Shown here one piece after another: positions 54,450 to 62,300 of a stretch of DNA of 64,000 nt. The first letter of the stretch is position 1; each line of letters opens with the position of its first letter. The stretch is taken from positions 1 to 64,000 of the forward strand of contig JAETNQ010000017.1 of the NCBI GenBank assembly GCA_021772075.1, written 5' to 3'. Below the pieces are notes generated by a model that worked only from the letters and a program-made list of their open reading frames with translations, searched no databases and had not been told where the DNA came from. A program made the translations under genes and the position numbers. The stretch comes from Lachnospiraceae bacterium. GTDB taxonomy: Bacteria > Bacillota > Clostridia > Lachnospirales > Lachnospiraceae.

Positions 54450-55541
54450 ATGCAACGTTTTCTTCATTTTTTACTTCCAAAAATTACTACAAAAAATAAC
54501 CGCAGAAAAGATGCCCTTATTACCCTTCTCCTGCTCGCGCTTGCTACGGCGCTTTCCTTCCTTTATTTCCGCGTATCGAGGAATTCGGCCAATGTGGCGC
54601 TTCTGTACATCCTTGCCCTTGTTCTGATCGCCCGCGTCACGGACGGTTATTTCTGGGGTATATTCGCGTCAATGATCGGCGTTGTCTGCGTCAACTTCCT
54701 GTTCACATACCCCTATTGGGCGTTAAACTTTACGCTGGCAGGTTATCCCGTTACTTTTATCGGCATGCTCGCCATTTCCTTTATTACCAGCGCGGCCGCC
54801 ACCCACATGAAACAACAAATGCAGATGCTCGCCGAAAGGGAACGGCTTCTGGTGGAAGCGGAAAAAGAAAAAATGCGCGCCAATCTCCTCCGCGCCATTT
54901 CCCATGACCTCCGCACTCCCCTGACAGGCATTATCGGCTCCGGAGCCTCTTATCTGGAAAACGGGGATGCTCTTGACGAAAAGCAGAAAAAAGAACTGGT
55001 AAAGCAAATTTATGAAGACTCCAACTGGCTGCTGAACATGGTGGAAAACCTTCTGTCAGTCACCCGCATCCAAGGCGGGGAAGCCAATGTAAATAAATCG
55101 CTGGAATCCGTCGAGGAAGTGGTATCAGAAGCTGTGATCCGGTTAAAAAAGCGTCTGCCCGATGCCCGGATCGATGTCAGCGTGCCGGATGAACTTATTC
55201 TGATCCCTATGGATGCCATTCTCATTGAACAGGTCCTGATCAACCTGATGGAAAACGCCGTCCTGCATTCCAAAAGCGAACTGCCCGTCTCCTGTTATGT
55301 CGAGGACTCGGAAAACGATATTATATTTCATGTGAGGGATTATGGAATCGGTATCCTGCCCGAACGGATAAAGACTATTTTTGACGGAACGGCATATACC
55401 GGAAACATTTCCGCAGACAGTTCCCGGGGCATGGGCATCGGACTTTCCATCTGCAAAACGATCATCTCCGCCCACAAAGGCATAATCGCCGCTTCCCCTT
55501 GTCCGCAGGGAACGGATTTTCATTTTTCCCTGCCCAAATAA
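54450..55541 (+). CDS. Short KdpD-like sensor histidine kinase
   Basis: A 363-residue membrane kinase equal to the C-terminal half of KdpD. Four hydrophobic helices (about 24-110, DUF4118 type) are followed by HisKA (phospho-His in ISHDLRTPLTG, about 151) and ATPase domain (NLMENAVLHSK, VRDYGIGI, SSRGMGIGLSI). The ~400-residue N-terminal KdpD/UspA sensor part of full-length KdpD (about 900 residues) is missing; the AAGGATAGG site before ATG 54450 shows this is the true start and not a truncated read. Paired with a KdpE-type regulator. Confidence 0.88.
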   Translation: MQRFLHFLLPKITTKNNRRKDALITLLLLALATALSFLYFRVSRNSANVALLYILALVLIARVTDGYFWGIFASMIGVVCVNFLFTYPYWALNFTLAGYPVTFIGMLAISFITSAAATHMKQQMQMLAERERLLVEAEKEKMRANLLRAISHDLRTPLTGIIGSGASYLENGDALDEKQKKELVKQIYEDSNWLLNMVENLLSVTRIQGGEANVNKSLESVEEVVSEAVIRLKKRLPDARIDVSVPDELILIPMDAILIEQVLINLMENAVLHSKSELPVSCYVEDSENDIIFHVRDYGIGILPERIKTIFDGTAYTGNISADSSRGMGIGLSICKTIISAHKGIIAASPCPQGTDFHFSLPK

Positions 55542-55585
55542 TCGGACCAGGGTGATATAAAAAGAAAGGCACGGTTATTGATTCT

Positions 55586-56296
55586 ATGAATGCAAAAACT
55601 TATATCGTCCTTATAGAAGACGAAAAAAACATCTGTAATTTTATCGCTACTACGCTTACCGCCCAAGGATACAAAGTATCCGCCGCCCCCAATGCCCGGT
55701 CCGGCCTAAGCCTCATCACCTCCGGCTGCCCGGATCTGGTCCTTCTCGATCTCGGCCTTCCCGACAGGGACGGCATCGAAATCATCCGCGAAATCCGCAC
55801 CTGGGCCAGCATCCCTATTATTGTTATTTCCGCCCGTACCCAGGAACAGGAAAAAGTTCTGGCCCTGGACTGCGGCGCCGACGATTATATTACCAAGCCT
55901 TTCGGCTCTTCCGAGCTGATGGCCCGCATCCGCACGGCCCTCCGGCACAGCAACCGGCTCCAGACCGGTTCCCGCTTGAACCAGAGGCCTTACCGGGCAA
56001 ACGGGCTGGTCATCGACTTCGAAAAACGCCTCGTCACCCTGAACGGAGAAAATATCCACCTGACCCAGATCGAATTCAAGATCGTCTCCCTCCTCGCCCG
56101 CAGCTCCGGCAAGGTAATTACCTATGACTCCATCATTTCCCATGTATGGGGGCCTTATGCCGACGACAATAACCGCATCCTGCGGGTCAATATGGCCAAC
56201 ATCCGGCGGAAGCTGGAGCAGAATCCTGCAGAACCCCATTATATTTTTACGGAAATCGGCATCGGCTACCGTATGCTGGAAGACCAGGAAGGATGA
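55586..56296 (+). CDS. KdpE-like response regulator
   Basis: A 236-residue OmpR/PhoB-type regulator. Receiver with EDEK pocket, phospho-Asp in VLLDLGLPDRDG (about 54), Lys in TKPFG, then a winged-helix DNA-binding domain (about 135-230, ending NIRRKLEQ...FTEIGIGYRML). Sequence features (IIREIRTW, GADDYITKPFGSSEL) are KdpE-like. In other bacteria it activates the potassium pump kdpFABC, which is not in this window. Convergent with copA, 21 nt apart. Confidence 0.88.
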   Translation: MNAKTYIVLIEDEKNICNFIATTLTAQGYKVSAAPNARSGLSLITSGCPDLVLLDLGLPDRDGIEIIREIRTWASIPIIVISARTQEQEKVLALDCGADDYITKPFGSSELMARIRTALRHSNRLQTGSRLNQRPYRANGLVIDFEKRLVTLNGENIHLTQIEFKIVSLLARSSGKVITYDSIISHVWGPYADDNNRILRVNMANIRRKLEQNPAEPHYIFTEIGIGYRMLEDQEG

Positions 56297-56317: not shown

Positions 56318-56530
56318 TTAATCCTTTATTTCCACAACTTCATAGCCCGCTTCCGTCACCGCTTCTTTCAGCGCCTCTTCCGGCACCTCACGATCCAGGA
56401 CAACTACCGCGCTTTTTTCTTCCAGGCTCATCTCCACAGATGTTACGCCCTCCACTGCTTCCAACGCTTTCTGCACCCTTGCTGTGCAATGTCCGCAGGA
56501 CATTCCTTCCACGATCATTGTTTTCGTCAT
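56318..56530 (-). CDS. Possible separate CopZ copper chaperone from an internal start
   Basis: Within copA, ATG 56530 has AAGGAGG (56539-56545) eight bases upstream. From it a 70-residue protein is read in frame, starting [15 protein letters not shown] and ending GYEVVEIKD, the exact size and motif pattern of free CopZ chaperones, with the Cu(I)-binding CxxC. It may therefore be made both as part of CopA and alone. The upstream linker codons ([20 protein letters not shown]) look like translated intergenic sequence, consistent with a lost stop codon. A sequencing error at the stop is an alternative. Confidence 0.6.
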
Positions 56531-58987
56531 CTTTTTTTCCTCCTTGATAATATGGTTATTCATTACATAGTTGCTATCGGAATTTTGTTTCCATTCCGCT
56601 TCGTTCTTACATTCTGCTCCATTTCCGCTTTCCTTTGCCGCCTCCCGAAACCGCCGCAGGCGGAGCGCGTTCGTCACCACGCACACGCTGCTCAGGCTCA
56701 TGGCCGCAGCGCCGAACATAGGATTCAGCTTTATGCCGAAGAAAGGATATAATACCCCTGCCGCCAATGGTATTCCTATGCTGTTATAGAAAAATGCCCA
56801 GAACAGATTTTCTTTGATATTCCTGATCACTGCCTTGCTTAACCGGATCGCTGTAACCGCATCCCGCAGATCGCTTTTCATCAGAATAATATCCGCGCTT
56901 TCCATGGCCACGTCCGTTCCGGCTCCGATAGCGATCCCCACATCAGCGCTTGCCAGCGCCGGAGCGTCATTGATCCCGTCGCCGATCATGGCAACCTTCT
57001 TTCCTTGTTCCTTCAGCGCCCGGATCTTTTCTTCTTTTTCCCCCGGCAGAACTTCTGCAACCACTTCCGCAATTCCCAGTTTCTTCCTCACGGCTTCCGC
57101 TGTCTTCCGGTTATCCCCTGTCAGCATAATCGTTTGGATATGCATTTTCTGCAGCTGCCGGATCGCCTCCGCCGACGAATCTTTGATCGTATCCGCCACC
57201 GCTATCATCGCCATAACACGGACCGGTTCCTTTAGTCCGTCCTGATTTTCCCCTTCGCCGGCCTCCGCCCGTCCAAATATAAGGGGCGTCTTTCCTTCTT
57301 CTGCCAGCTGTTCCATCGCCCGTACTTGTTCTTCCGTAAAATGCGCCTCTTTTTCTTCCAGAAACTTCCGGTTCCCGGCATAATACAGGATATCTCCAAT
57401 CTTTCCCTGTATCCCTTTTCCGAATATTGCCTGGAATTCCTTCACTTCGGGCAATGCGAACCCCAGTTCCCCGGCGTATCCCATCACGGCATCGGCCAAG
57501 GGATGTTCGCTTGGCTTTTCCAATGCTGCCGCCAGCGCCACCGCTTCCTCCTTCGTCCATTCCTTGCCATAAACGACCACATCGGTAACGCGGGGTTTGC
57601 CCTCCGTCACTGTCCCCGTCTTATCCAGCACTACCGTATCCACTCCCCGGGCTTCCTGCAGCGCTTCCCCGGACTTGATCAGCACGCCGTATTTCGCTCC
57701 CACGCCCGTCCCTACCATGATTGCTACCGGGGTTGCCAGCCCGAGGGCGCAGGGACAGGAAATGACCAGCACTGCGATTCCTGCCGACATGGCGAATTCA
57801 AACCCGGCGCCGCTCACAAGCCATACCGCTGCCGCCAGCAAGGCAATCCCGATGACTACAGGCACGAATACACCCGCAATCTTATCCGCCAGCCTGGCAA
57901 TCGGCGCTTTCGATGCGCCCGCCTCTTCCACCAGCCGGATGATCTGGGATAATGTGGTGTCCTCCCCCACTTTTTCCGCGCGGCACTTCAGCGCCCCCGC
58001 CTTATTCACCGTAGCCGACACCACTTGGTCGCCCGCCTTCTTTTCCACCGGTATGCTTTCTCCCGTGATCGCCGATTCATCCACGCTGGAATTCCCTTCC
58101 AGAACCACCCCGTCCACCGGCACAAGGCTTCCCGGTTTTACGAGGAAGATATCCCCCTTTTCCACATCTTCCGTCGGAATCTGCTCTTCGGAACCGTCCT
58201 CCCTGAGTATAATCGCCGTTTTCGGCGACAGATCCATCAATTTCGTAATCGCCGCGCTGGTCTTTCCCTTTGATTTTGTTTCCAGATATTTTCCTACCGT
58301 AATCAAAGTTAAAATCGTTCCGGCGGACTCAAAGTAAATATCCATCGCATACTGCTCCACCAAAGCGGCGTCCCCGTGTCCCAGCCCATAACCGATCCTG
58401 AAAATAGCAAAGCATCCATAGGCGACGGCCGCCGATGCCCCGATCGCGATCAGGCTGTCCATATTCGGGCTTCCCCTGAACAAAGTTTTAAAACCCACTT
58501 TAAAATATTTCTGGTTTACATACAATATGGGCAGCAGCAGCAGGAACTGGGAAAATGCAAAGGCTACCGCATTCTCATTCCCATGGAAAGCCGCTTTGAT
58601 AAAACCGGGAACGGGCAGGCCGAACCACTCATAAAACATATGATGCATGGAAATATACATCAGCGGAACCAGAAAGCCGATAGAAATGCCCAGCCGCCGT
58701 TTCATGGCCTTTTCTTCCTCCTCCACTTTTTTCTTCAAGGCATCTTCTCCAGCCTTTATTCCCGCATTTCCCTGTGCTGTTTTCTTATTATTTTTTTTAT
58801 CCGCCCCGTAACCGGCCTTTTCTACTGCCTCTATGATCTCCTGTTCTGTCGCAGAACCTTCCACGCTCATGGAATTCGTCAGCAGACTGACCGAACAGGA
58901 CGTTACGCCGGGCACCTTCGACACCGCCTTTTCCACATGGGCGCTGCAGGCAGCGCAGCTCATCCCCGTTACTATATATTGTTCCAT
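56318..58987 (-). CDS. copA: Copper-exporting P1B-ATPase CopA with C-terminal CopZ-like domain
   Basis: An 889-residue P1B-1 ATPase. N-terminal HMA domain with CxxC in [13 protein letters not shown] (about 10), eight transmembrane helices, metal-channel CPC in SCPCALG (about 415), phosphorylation site DKTGT (about 455), [10 protein letters not shown] hinge, and YN / MSxSS motifs in the last helices ([11 protein letters not shown]). After the final helix a ~30-residue linker leads into a complete second HMA domain (GMSCGHC). That domain is preceded, within the frame, by AAGGAGG and ATG, exactly as a separate copZ gene would be. It follows csoR, which should repress it. Confidence 0.95.
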
Positions 58988-59050
58988 ACACGCCTCCTAA
59001 TTGCTGTTCTATTTTACGATTCCGGTAACGACAGGACTTTTGCAGCCGAA

Positions 59051-59383
59051 TCATTTCATCAGCTTCTGCAAGGTCTCCAGCAGCTCATCGATCGTTTCCT
59101 CCCTGCCTTCTTTGATATCGTTCACTACGCAGCTCCTGATATGATTCGCAAGCAATACCTTGTTAAAACTATTCAGCGCCGCGTTCACCGCCGCCACTTG
59201 GACGAGGATATCCGTACAATACCTTCCTTCCTCCACCATCCCTCTGATTCCCCGTATCTGCCCTTCGATACGGTTTAAACGGTGGATCAGGTCCTTATAT
59301 TCCTTCTCCTGCCGTTCCTTCGTCCTATATCCATCCTCTTTTTCCATCCGTTTCCCCCTATGCTGATGCATCGTTTCTAACAT
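59051..59383 (-). CDS. csoR: Copper-sensing repressor CsoR
   Basis: A 110-residue all-helical CsoR/RcnR-family regulator. The Cu(I) ligands are Cys in YCTDILVQ, then His and Cys in NHIRSCV. LNRIEGQIRGI is the family signature. I start at ATG 59383 with AAGGA upstream; the longer frame to 59503 crosses the promoter. It should bind the dyad inside its own promoter and control copA, which starts 64 nt downstream. Confidence 0.94.
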   Translation of the reverse strand: MLETMHQHRGKRMEKEDGYRTKERQEKEYKDLIHRLNRIEGQIRGIRGMVEEGRYCTDILVQVAAVNAALNSFNKVLLANHIRSCVVNDIKEGREETIDELLETLQKLMK

Positions 59384-59419
59384 TGAGACTTCCTTTTTAT
59401 TATTCCCCTTTCCAACACT

Positions 59420-59448
59420 AATATATACCCCCATAGGGTATATGTCAA
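59420..59448 (-). promoter_or_regulatory. csoR-copA promoter with CsoR operator in the spacer
   Basis: Minus-strand TTGACA (59443-59448), 17-nt spacer, TATATT (59420-59425). The dyad ATATACCC-CCATA-GGGTATAT (59423-59443) has perfect 8-bp arms and a G/C tract core as known for CsoR operators. It fills the spacer, so bound CsoR would block polymerase. Confidence 0.85.
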
Positions 59449-59512
59449 TAAAAATATGCAGAATCAGGGGAATCCATTTTGGCAGACAACAAGAGCATGC
59501 CATGCTGGAGAC

Positions 59513-59782
59513 AAGGCTGTGGAGCCTGGCGAAAAAATCGGTTGGGAGGAAGAGCGTTTTTTGCTGTTGCTTCCTGTCAGAATTTCACTTATGAAATGGA
59601 TAAAAACCAAGGGAGAAATTGCCACGGATGGCAATTTCAGGAAGACGGGGCATGAATGCCCCTTTCTTCCGACCCGATCGGTTCCACAATACTTTCCCAT
59701 TTCATTAGTGAAATCTGATGGGAAGCTCCAGCAAAAAACGCTCTCCCTCCCAACCGATTTTTTCGCCAGGCTCCACAGCCTT
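59513..59782. repeat. Nested 270-bp inverted repeat
   Basis: Outer arms of 54 nt (59513-59566 and 59729-59782) match at 53 of 54 positions as inverted repeats. The pairing continues inward for about 30 more bases with a few mismatches. The centre holds further hairpins: GAAATTGCC..GGCAATTTC (59615-59638) and GGAAGA.GGGGCA..TGCCCC..TCTTCC (59640-59670). No open reading frame fits. It fills the interval between the zinc ATPase stop (59790) and the csoR promoter. A MITE-like element or a large structured RNA are both possible; no target duplication was found. Confidence 0.85.
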
Positions 59783-59789
59783 ATTCCAA

Positions 59790-61661
59790 TCACTTCATAG
59801 CCCGCATTGCATTCAGGATCGCGATTACAGCCACCCCTACATCCGCAAAAACCGCCGCCCACATAGACGCTATTCCAACGGCCGCCAGCAGCAATACCAG
59901 CACTTTCACCCCTATGGCAAAAACGATATTCTGCTTTACGATTCCAAGAGTCTTTTTCGAAATCTGCATTGCTTTCACAATCTTGGACGGTTCGTCTGTC
60001 ATAATGACCACATCCGCCGCTTCGATCGCCGCATCGGAGCCGAGGCCCCCCATGGCTACGCCGATATCAGCCCTGGCCAGTACGGGAGCGTCGTTGATGC
60101 CGTCGCCTACGAAAATCAGCCGCCCTTTTTCCGATTTCGATGCCAGCAGCTTCTCTACCTGTTCCACTTTATCTCCGGGAAGAAGTTCCGCATACACCTC
60201 CGTAATTCCCAGTTCCCTGGCTATGCTGTCCGCCGTTTTTTTCCGGTCTCCGGTCAGCATGACAATATTTTTCATGCCGACAGCTCTGAAACCGTCCACT
60301 GCCGTTTTCGCATCCTCTTTGACCTCGTCCGCGATCACGATATATCCCAGATATTTCTGTTCTTTTGCCACATGAACGATAGTTCCCGCTTCTTCCGGCA
60401 ATTTGGGTTCCACATTCCGGTTTTTCATCAGTTTATCGTTTCCCGCCAGAACGCGCTGACCGTCCAAAATAGCACAAACGCCATGTCCTGCCGTTTCCTC
60501 CACATCCCTTATCCGGGAATCATCGATCTCCTTTCCGTATGCCTGCACGAGAGAGCGGGAAATCGGGTGATTGGAATAATTTTCCGCATATGCCGCCGTT
60601 TCCAATACTTCCTCTTCCGTGCTTCCTTCCGCCGGAACAATCTTTCTCACGCCAAATACTCCCTTAGTGAGAGTCCCTGTCTTATCCATAACGATCATTT
60701 CCGCAGCCGCAAGGGCTTCCAGATAATTGCTGCCTTTGATTAAAATACCTTCTCTGCTGGCTCCTCCCAGTCCGCCGAAAAAGCTTAACGGAATGCTGAT
60801 CACTAATGCGCACGGGCAGGAAATAACCAAAAAGCTTAACGCCCGGTATATCCAATCCACCCAGCCGCCCCCGGCAGCCAGAGGGGGAACCAGCGCCAGA
60901 AGCGCCGCAAGCCCTACCACCACCGGAGTATAATATCTGGCAAACTTCGTAATAAAATGTTCTGCCTCCGATTTTTTGCTTCCCGCATTCTCCACCAAAT
61001 CCAATATTTTCGCCACCGTGGATTCCCCGAACTCCTTCGATACCTGAACCTCCAGCACGCCGGAAAGATTCACACAGCCGCTGATGACATCCTCGCCCTC
61101 TGCCACATCCCTTGGAATACTCTCCCCGGTAAGAGCCATGGTATCCAAGGAAGAAGTTCCCTTAACCACCTTCCCGTCCAGGGGAATTCTTTCTCCTGGC
61201 TTGACCAGTATCGTCTCGCCGATCTCCACCTCTTCCGGCCCTACTTCCGCCACGGCGCCGTCCCTGATCACATTGGCATAATCCGGGCGGATATCCATCA
61301 AATCGGCAATGGATTTCCTGGATCTGTTTACCGCATAAGACTGGAAGCATTCCCCCACCTGGTAAAAGAGCATCACCGCTACAGCTTCCGCGTATTCCCC
61401 TACAAAGAAGGCTCCTGCGGTAGCAATTGTCATCAGGAAATTTTCATCAAAAATCTGTCCTTGCCCGATATTTTTTACCGCCTTTTTTACAACATCCCCG
61501 CCTATCACAATATAAGCAGCCAGAAATATAATCAGTGAGGCGCTTATGCTCCAGGAACCAAATTCCCAATAAGGAGCGAAACGGGAAAACAAAACTGCGG
61601 CCAAATACACTGCGGCTCCTGCGCCTACCCGCTTTATCCTTTTTTTCAACTTCTTGCTCAT
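59790..61661 (-). CDS. Zinc/cadmium/lead-exporting P1B-2 ATPase
   Basis: A 623-residue metal pump (CadA/ZntA type). Basic N-terminus, transmembrane helices, CPC in SCPCALVISIP (about 285), DKTGTL phosphorylation site (about 330), [11 protein letters not shown] hinge, and the Lys/Asp of the last helices. Pairs of N-terminal HMA domains seen in CadA are absent; a single HMA is encoded as a separate protein upstream, overlapping by 4 nt. P1B-2 class follows from the CPC context. Controlled by the upstream ArsR-type repressor. Cannot tell Zn from Cd preference. Confidence 0.93.
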   Translation of the reverse strand: MSKKLKKRIKRVGAGAAVYLAAVLFSRFAPYWEFGSWSISASLIIFLAAYIVIGGDVVKKAVKNIGQGQIFDENFLMTIATAGAFFVGEYAEAVAVMLFYQVGECFQSYAVNRSRKSIADLMDIRPDYANVIRDGAVAEVGPEEVEIGETILVKPGERIPLDGKVVKGTSSLDTMALTGESIPRDVAEGEDVISGCVNLSGVLEVQVSKEFGESTVAKILDLVENAGSKKSEAEHFITKFARYYTPVVVGLAALLALVPPLAAGGGWVDWIYRALSFLVISCPCALVISIPLSFFGGLGGASREGILIKGSNYLEALAAAEMIVMDKTGTLTKGVFGVRKIVPAEGSTEEEVLETAAYAENYSNHPISRSLVQAYGKEIDDSRIRDVEETAGHGVCAILDGQRVLAGNDKLMKNRNVEPKLPEEAGTIVHVAKEQKYLGYIVIADEVKEDAKTAVDGFRAVGMKNIVMLTGDRKKTADSIARELGITEVYAELLPGDKVEQVEKLLASKSEKGRLIFVGDGINDAPVLARADIGVAMGGLGSDAAIEAADVVIMTDEPSKIVKAMQISKKTLGIVKQNIVFAIGVKVLVLLLAAVGIASMWAAVFADVGVAVIAILNAMRAMK

Positions 61662-61879
61662 TTTTCCACCACTTCCACATCCGGTTCGTATTTTTTTACG
61701 ACCTTTTTAATTTCCTTTGTAATTTTATCCGCCTTTGCATCGTCCACCTCTATTGTCAGCTTCTGCGTCAGGAATGCCACCGTGCTTTTCGTCACTCCCT
61801 CCAGCTTTCCAACCGCCGCTTCGATTTCCGCCGCGCAATGTGCGCAGTCCAATTCCTCCAAAATATAAGTTTTCCTCAT
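61658..61879 (-). CDS. Stand-alone HMA metal-binding protein
   Basis: A 73-residue ferredoxin-fold metal-binding protein beginning MRKTYILEELDCAHCAAEIE, with CxxC preceded by Asp (DCAHC), the pattern of Zn/Cd HMA domains. Probably delivers metal to the ATPase, whose start overlaps its stop by 4 nt (ATGA). GGAGGAG lies before ATG 61879. In most CadA proteins this domain is fused to the pump. Confidence 0.9.
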   Translation of the reverse strand: MRKTYILEELDCAHCAAEIEAAVGKLEGVTKSTVAFLTQKLTIEVDDAKADKITKEIKKVVKKYEPDVEVVEK

Positions 61880-61906
61880 TTTCTTCTCCTCCTTTATTTT
61901 TTCTTT

Positions 61907-62278
61907 TTATTCATCTTCTTCGATATGGTCCAAGCCCTGGCTCAAAATCGTCTTAATATGGCTGTCCGCAAGGGAATAGAACACCGTCTTCCCTTCCCGC
62001 CTGTTTCGCACCAGATCCATTTGCTTTAAAGTGCGGAGCTGGTGGGAAATCGCCGACTGCGTCATATTCAGCGTCTGCGCCAGATCACAGACGCACATTT
62101 CCCCGCACATCAGCACATACAGCATTTTGATTCTGGTGGAATCTGCAAACACCTTGAAAAAATCCGCCAGATCATAAAGCTTATCTTCTTCCGGCATCTG
62201 CTCGTTCACCCTTTTTACCGTCTCCTCATGCACATGGATATATTCACATTTTTCTATCTGCTCTTCCTTACGCTTCAT
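61907..62278 (-). CDS. ArsR/SmtB-family metal-sensing repressor
   Basis: A 123-residue winged-helix repressor from ATG 62278 (GAGG six bases upstream; 62284 is an alternative). MCVCDLA and TQSAISHQLRTLK form the DNA-binding part. The last helix ADSHIKTILSQGLDHIEEDE carries Asp, His, His and Glu at the alpha5 zinc-binding positions, as in CzrA/SmtB. An N-terminal Cys and HVHE cluster plus MCVCD may form a second, CadC-like site. It derepresses the HMA-ATPase genes when zinc or cadmium rises. Confidence 0.9.
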   Translation of the reverse strand: MKRKEEQIEKCEYIHVHEETVKRVNEQMPEEDKLYDLADFFKVFADSTRIKMLYVLMCGEMCVCDLAQTLNMTQSAISHQLRTLKQMDLVRNRREGKTVFYSLADSHIKTILSQGLDHIEEDE

Positions 62279-62300
62279 AACCATCCTCTTATCCTTCTAT

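Follow-up and report, generated by a model that had tools for sequence, protein, structure and literature searches.

A copA-copZ fusion gene of Clostridia with a conserved internal start predicted to yield free CopZ

In the window analysed here, i.e. the whole stretch of 64,000 nucleotides taken from contig JAETNQ010000017.1 of a Lachnospiraceae bacterium (assembly GCA_021772075.1), the copper ATPase gene copA continues in frame past its last transmembrane helix into a second metal-binding (HMA) domain that resembles CopZ. This raises the question of whether the locus produces a fused pump only or a free chaperone as well. The initial annotation described a CopA running in frame into a 70-residue HMA domain, with an AAGGAGG eight bases before an in-frame ATG, a description that proved exact on re-reading. 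It further proposed that a CopA-CopZ fusion and free CopZ may be translated from one and the same frame. The comparison of sequences described below lends strong support to this proposal, and copA is very likely a dual-product gene in which internal initiation would yield free CopZ from the copA mRNA.

Organisation of the copA-copZ locus

The features of the locus are listed in Table 1. The fusion scores 587.6 bits with TIGR01511 (copper-translocating P-type ATPase) for a cut-off of 397, Pfam detects in it an E1-E2_ATPase and two HMA stretches, and the CopA translation contains both a CPC in a membrane helix and the phosphorylation motif DKTGT, which we take to be motifs of P1B-1 copper ATPases. 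The last helix of CopA ends with NALRL and is followed by a charged linker and then by the HMA domain, which is closed by the stop of the fusion, a TAA at 56320-56318. The spacer between the AAGGAGG of the linker and the inner ATG is AAAAAAAG, and the inner Met is invariant in alignment A1 (30 of 30 rows). The 70-residue piece has the size, HMA fold and CxxC of a CopZ and scores 65.4 bits with PF00403 (HMA; cut-off 24.8); it stays below the curated cut-offs for CopZ (NF033795, 63.3 for 91; NF047957, 69.7 for 85; NF033794, 60.7 for 95; TIGR00003, 61.7 for 62) and is therefore called CopZ-like. Its relatives in a search of PDB sequences were CopZ proteins as well as copper ATPase metal-binding domains. 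In the genome of the window, Pfam HMA matches occur three times, two of them in the fusion and one in a small frame at 61691-61867, next to a zinc/cadmium-type pump.

Table 1. Features of the copA-copZ locus and of the region upstream (positions in the window)
Feature	Position	Strand	Description	Basis
copA-copZ fusion gene	56318..58987	-	889 aa, ATG start; P1B-1 copper ATPase bearing an N-terminal HMA domain and a C-terminal, CopZ-like one	ORF list
Nested copZ (candidate)	56318..56530, including stop	-	70-residue HMA domain with GMSCGHC	Pfam HMA
Inner ATG of nested copZ	56528..56530	-	Residue 820 of the fusion	
Linker, last transmembrane helix to C-terminal HMA	56531..56656	-		Limits set by eye
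Internal Shine-Dalgarno, AAGGAGG	56539..56545	-	8 bases before the inner ATG	Anti-SD duplex, -11.2 kcal/mol
N-terminal HMA of CopA	58808..58978	-		Pfam HMA match
AGGAGG before the ATG of copA itself (58987)	58993..58998	-	Ordinary start of the long product	
CsoR/RicR-like copper-sensing repressor	59051..59503	-	Upstream of copA on the same strand; domain from residue 69	PF02583, 109.4 bits
Promoter-like TTGACA-17-TATATT	59420..59448	-	Ahead of csoR, overlapped by a palindrome at 59443-59423	

The true start of csoR is probably the in-frame ATG at 59383. The palindrome that overlaps the promoter-like sequence, ATATACCCTATGGGGGTATAT, occurs once in the window and would fit a CsoR operator, such operators being described as "G-tract containing pseudopalindromes" in an excerpt of PMC3902906. 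When the minus strand was scanned with the sigma-70 consensus between 56200 and 59600, a single promoter-like site was found, the one before csoR (59448), and none within copA; a separate copZ transcript is thus not suggested, and a promoter of its own for copZ was rejected as an explanation. As judged from this arrangement, copA probably belongs to a copper-induced csoR-copA operon.

Several other features were observed around the locus. Between csoR and the zinc/cadmium-type pump lies an inverted repeat of 72 bases (59513-59584 and 59711-59782; 92% complementary, with 126 bases between the arms) that has the appearance of a MITE-like dispersed element and that gave 34 matches in its own genome, some of which represent one place read on both strands. 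The adjacent region (59790-62284) encodes an ArsR-family regulator, a 73-aa HMA protein and the zinc/cadmium-type ATPase, whose start overlaps the end of the HMA gene by four bases; metal-binding domain and pump are thus split between two genes, the opposite of the neighbouring copA. On the other side, convergent with copA, a short KdpD-like histidine kinase (363 aa, DUF4118) is found beside a KdpE-like response regulator (54450-56296).

Distribution and age of the fusion

Sixteen genomes of the genus were searched, including that of the window, and fused copA was found in 12, with G001, G002, G007 and G011 giving unfused copA only. In an even draw of 110 Lachnospiraceae genomes, 95 had a match and 76 carried the fusion (hand count). 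An error of the assembly, which the initial annotation had envisaged together with separate genes in relatives, fails as an explanation in view of these 76 genomes and is ruled out because the fusion recurs in many other assemblies. The same draw contains 79 fused loci (hand count), namely 69 rows in which both domains are spanned and the linker has no stop, nine split matches lying inside one long frame, and G090, a partial match within a frame of 931 residues; the lone TAA of G095, read in its copy L074, falls after the HMA domain and not in the linker. At three loci of the draw (G063, G141 and G052), copA and copZ are neighbours separated by a stop. In the draw of the class Clostridia, 219 of 343 genomes had a match, with fusions in many families and, in other families, copA followed by a stop and then by copZ; in the draw of the phylum a match was obtained in 58 of 348 genomes. 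Where the two genes are separate in related Clostridia (25 pairs), copA comes first and a stop plus 15-183 bases lie between them.

For comparison of the fused genes, a main set of 265 distinct fusions was fetched from Clostridia and other groups, 70 of them from named records. It covers part of the fusions found, the material fetched comprising at most 30 loci from each search, 80 named loci and 148 regions, and copies at least 97% alike were merged. Sixteen entries could not be parsed and stand outside the set (L003, L026, L027, L057, L108, L112, L128, L137, L158, L175, L199, L205, L215, L247, L296 and L318); some of these are not copA stretches and some are fusions, as in L057, L112 and L137, where a Met precedes the HMA domain. 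Entries L332-L339 were added later and are outside its counts. A clustered set was obtained by grouping at 70% CopA identity (123 clusters).

The fused state spans all these 123 clusters of less than 70% CopA identity, and four changes between fused and unfused are needed in a tree built quickly from 154 CopA rows, one "unfused" row (L001) having a long branch and being probably a zinc pump and not a copA. Together, the clusters and the small number of changes indicate that the fusion is old and stable, and the suggestion made in the initial annotation that a recent loss of the copA stop gave rise to it is not supported. The same data render it very unlikely that the internal motif is a relic of such a recent loss, in which the ribosome binding site of a former copZ would not yet have decayed and only the fusion would be made or would matter. 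Loss of a stop is in itself a believable origin, since separate copA-stop-SD-ATG-copZ arrangements exist in other families of Clostridia and at G063, G141 and G052, yet the linkers range in length from 22 to 96 residues (from the helix to the G of GMxCxxC; 232 fusions) while the Shine-Dalgarno (SD) sequence persists far above synonymous expectation (see below).

The converse, that free CopZ is what counts and that the fusion, with a functionless tethered domain, reflects tolerated read-through where a stop was lost, would agree with the poor conservation of the linker and is nevertheless considered unlikely. The shifted frames of the linker are open in only 43 of 264 fusions (+1; 16%) and 13 of 264 (+2; 5%), base composition alone predicting ca. 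10%; frame 0 is open in all fusions by definition, the sample having been chosen as fused, and the fairer measure is that of the family draw, with its 79 fused loci vs three stop-split pairs. An old fusion whose linker frame is kept open suggests that selection has retained both products, the fusion and the free CopZ.

Conservation of the internal Shine-Dalgarno sequence and start

Candidate starts were in-frame ATG, GTG or TTG codons located 4-30 codons before the GMxCxxC of the last HMA domain, and each was scored by the energy of the anti-SD duplex in the stretch from 20 to 5 bases upstream, with a threshold of -8 kcal/mol. Taking the best in-frame candidate, an inner SD at or below the threshold was found in 255 of the 265 fusions and in 114 of the 123 clusters, part of the sampling having relied on a profile in which the Met is included, which favours Met-bearing fusions but not the SD. 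When the nearest ATG was taken irrespective of its energy, the threshold was reached in 250 of 265. In 222 of the 264 fusions with a candidate, the HMA motif follows the chosen codon at a distance of exactly 8 codons. By comparison, the threshold was reached by 5.7% of the 3677 Met codons located in the bodies of CopA (232 fusions), by 14.0% of 1325 random 27-codon windows subjected to the same best-of choice, and by 4.4% of 641 other in-frame Met codons of the linker and HMA domain.

The internal SD is as strong as that of the start of copA itself and comes near the strength found in separate copZ genes, the median energies being -10.8 kcal/mol for the internal sites, -10.2 for the start of copA (n=65, 82% at -8 or lower) and -12.3 for separate copZ genes (23 of 25 at threshold). 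Its position is also constrained: GGAGG begins at -13 or -12 in 207 of the 258 fusions assigned, and the information content near the SD reaches its maximum at -12 (1.47 bits). The start region is unstructured, with a mean MFE of -1.9 kcal/mol in the clustered set vs -10.6 in windows of the body.

The linker is rich in K and E, and a charged peptide (K-E-E or K-G-E) selected for protein function could in principle leave an SD as a by-product of codon choice. Indeed, when the eight residues before the start were recoded synonymously, the threshold was still reached in ca. 45% of cases with the codon usage of the body and in 35% with that of the linker, as compared with 255 of 264 in the observed fusions. 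The codons actually used speak against this explanation: at the site, AAGGAG encodes the pair KE (codons -5/-4) in 98 of 115 cases, as opposed to 173 of 836 in other parts of these genes, and KG is written AAAGGA in 39 of 42 vs 80 of 601. On an earlier set of 231 fusions, the Wilcoxon test of observed against recoded sequences gave p 3e-37 and Fisher tests on the earlier set gave p 3e-42 for KE and 3e-23 for KG, these p values counting related species as separate events while the clustered set shows the same proportions. Furthermore, each of the three possible phases of the SD motif with respect to the reading frame is represented (172, 76 and 10 fusions, with 7 of 265 unassigned), so that differing peptides such as KEE, KGE/KGD or ERK encode it. 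Selection on the peptide, already contradicted by the choice of codons, is thus left with a negligible probability, and a chance SD in a K/E-rich linker is rejected by the control counts together with the recoding test. These data indicate that the SD and the initiator codon are conserved beyond what the protein requires.

Predicted products, known systems and natural variants

According to the dual-product model, ribosomes that start at the ATG of copA itself would make the 889-residue pump with its tethered CopZ-like C-terminal domain, while 30S subunits binding the internal AAGGAGG, in an unstructured A-rich region of the same mRNA, would start at the ATG at 56530 and make a free CopZ of 70 residues. 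Initiation at the inner ATG would then really take place, as its conservation leads us to infer. Free CopZ would presumably act as a chaperone for CopA, carrying Cu(I) to the pump and buffering the cytosol. Since both products would come from a single transcript, probably controlled by CsoR, they would be induced together by copper; the control of the operon by CsoR is itself deduced from the neighbouring gene and its putative operator. The tethered domain may have a role of its own as an extra metal sensor or loading domain.

Production of two proteins from copA has a precedent in E. coli, in which, according to excerpts of PMC5009743 and PMC7558416, a free copper chaperone of ca. 70 residues, CopA(Z), is made from the 5' part of the gene by -1 programmed frameshifting. 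In both cases one copA gene would supply the pump and a free metal-binding product of ca. 70 residues. The E. coli product derives from the 5' part and depends on a slippery sequence, an mRNA pseudoknot and the nascent chain, whereas the one proposed here would correspond to the C-terminal domain and would be translated, with no change of frame, from a second start. In-frame starts within genes are themselves a recognised class in enterobacteria, with proteoforms such as those of clpB, infB and yebG detected by Ribo-RET (excerpt of PMC11005335). These resemble the present case in that a shorter proteoform lacking the N-terminal part is translated from the same mRNA, beginning at an in-frame start further downstream; they differ in having been found by profiling in enterobacteria, the copZ start being deduced from conservation across many families of Clostridia, and in that the inner start of copA would yield a complete CopZ-like protein. 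Finally, copZ often shares an operon with copA, as stated in the excerpt of PMC7558416. Such operons in related Clostridia encode the same two proteins in the same order with SD sequences of similar strength, and differ from the fusion by the stop and the intergenic bases described above. No report of a nested or internal copZ start was found among the titles and abstract openings of the open-licence papers listed, which leaves its absence from print unproven.

What appears to be new is therefore a known device, the internal start, serving a known need, a pump and a chaperone from one gene, in a new way and over a wide range. It is likely that much of the class Clostridia, gut commensals included, makes chaperone and pump from one frame with two starts, tethered and free forms being both selected and the ribosome binding site being conserved inside the linker, as a convergent, class-wide alternative to the E. 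coli frameshift. If so, bacteria of very many kinds would use internal initiation to make a small chaperone contained in a longer frame, the locus would stand out for its clarity among comparative examples of functional internal starts, and distant bacteria would have met the same need by two unlike translational devices. The role of the tethered CopZ would also become testable, fused, split, tandem and start-lost versions all existing in nature.

Among these natural versions, three fusions have a codon other than that of Met behind a strong SD, and in all three it is an alternative initiator (GTG in L147 and L287, TTG in L152). Five fusions carry two or three C-terminal HMA domains. In four of them (L075, L155, L254 and L339) SD and start precede the last HMA only; in the fifth, L315, the last HMA has a site of -9.2 kcal/mol and the first a borderline one of -8.2, the Met of which lies 4 codons from the motif of the first HMA, inside that domain. 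These variants bear on the idea that the purine-rich motif is an elongation pause that would help the last helix to insert or the pump to fold before the HMA domain is made. Stretches resembling an SD within genes have been proposed to slow ribosomes, although the proposal is disputed. However, the distance from the last helix varies from 22 to 96 codons (to the motif) while that between SD and start is tight; initiator codons are kept, GTG and TTG included, and the last domain alone is marked in four of the five tandem fusions. We therefore hold a pause to be extremely unlikely.

The threshold was missed by 10 of the 265 fusions. Four of these (L164, L174, L299 and L308) display a weaker match (-5.9 to -7.3 kcal/mol) before an ATG, and the other six (L177, L179, L180, L266, L271 and L326) have no convincing inner start, which indicates that the latter is dispensable in some lineages. 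In L177 the stop of the fusion is directly followed by an HMA gene with its own SD, which could be taken as compensation; it belongs, however, to a different HMA subtype, and a similar gene lies downstream of the fusion in L052, whose inner start is strong, so that little weight is given to L177. The second HMA gene found closely downstream of the fusion in both L052 and L177 is of the subtype GMMCGMCExHVN. No small HMA gene was present in the stretches fetched for L179, L180, L266, L271 and L326. More generally, at least one other small HMA protein (frame of less than 160 aa) occurs in 21 of 23 genomes checked (hand count), irrespective of whether the inner start is kept, as well as in the genome of the window, meaning that a free HMA protein is not unique to the nested start, and loss of the inner start showed no clean correlation with the presence of a separate copZ (L177 and L052; 23 genomes).

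L271, whose record is titled Bacteroidetes, keeps the ATG and lacks the SD, and its pump frame shows one HMA domain, at the C-terminus. The Bacteroidetes are not known to rely on the SD, and this single record would fit such a group. Lastly, in the class members L167-L170, the HMA domain fused to CopA has DMSCxHC in place of GMxCxxC and is preceded by an in-frame Met and a purine-rich stretch.
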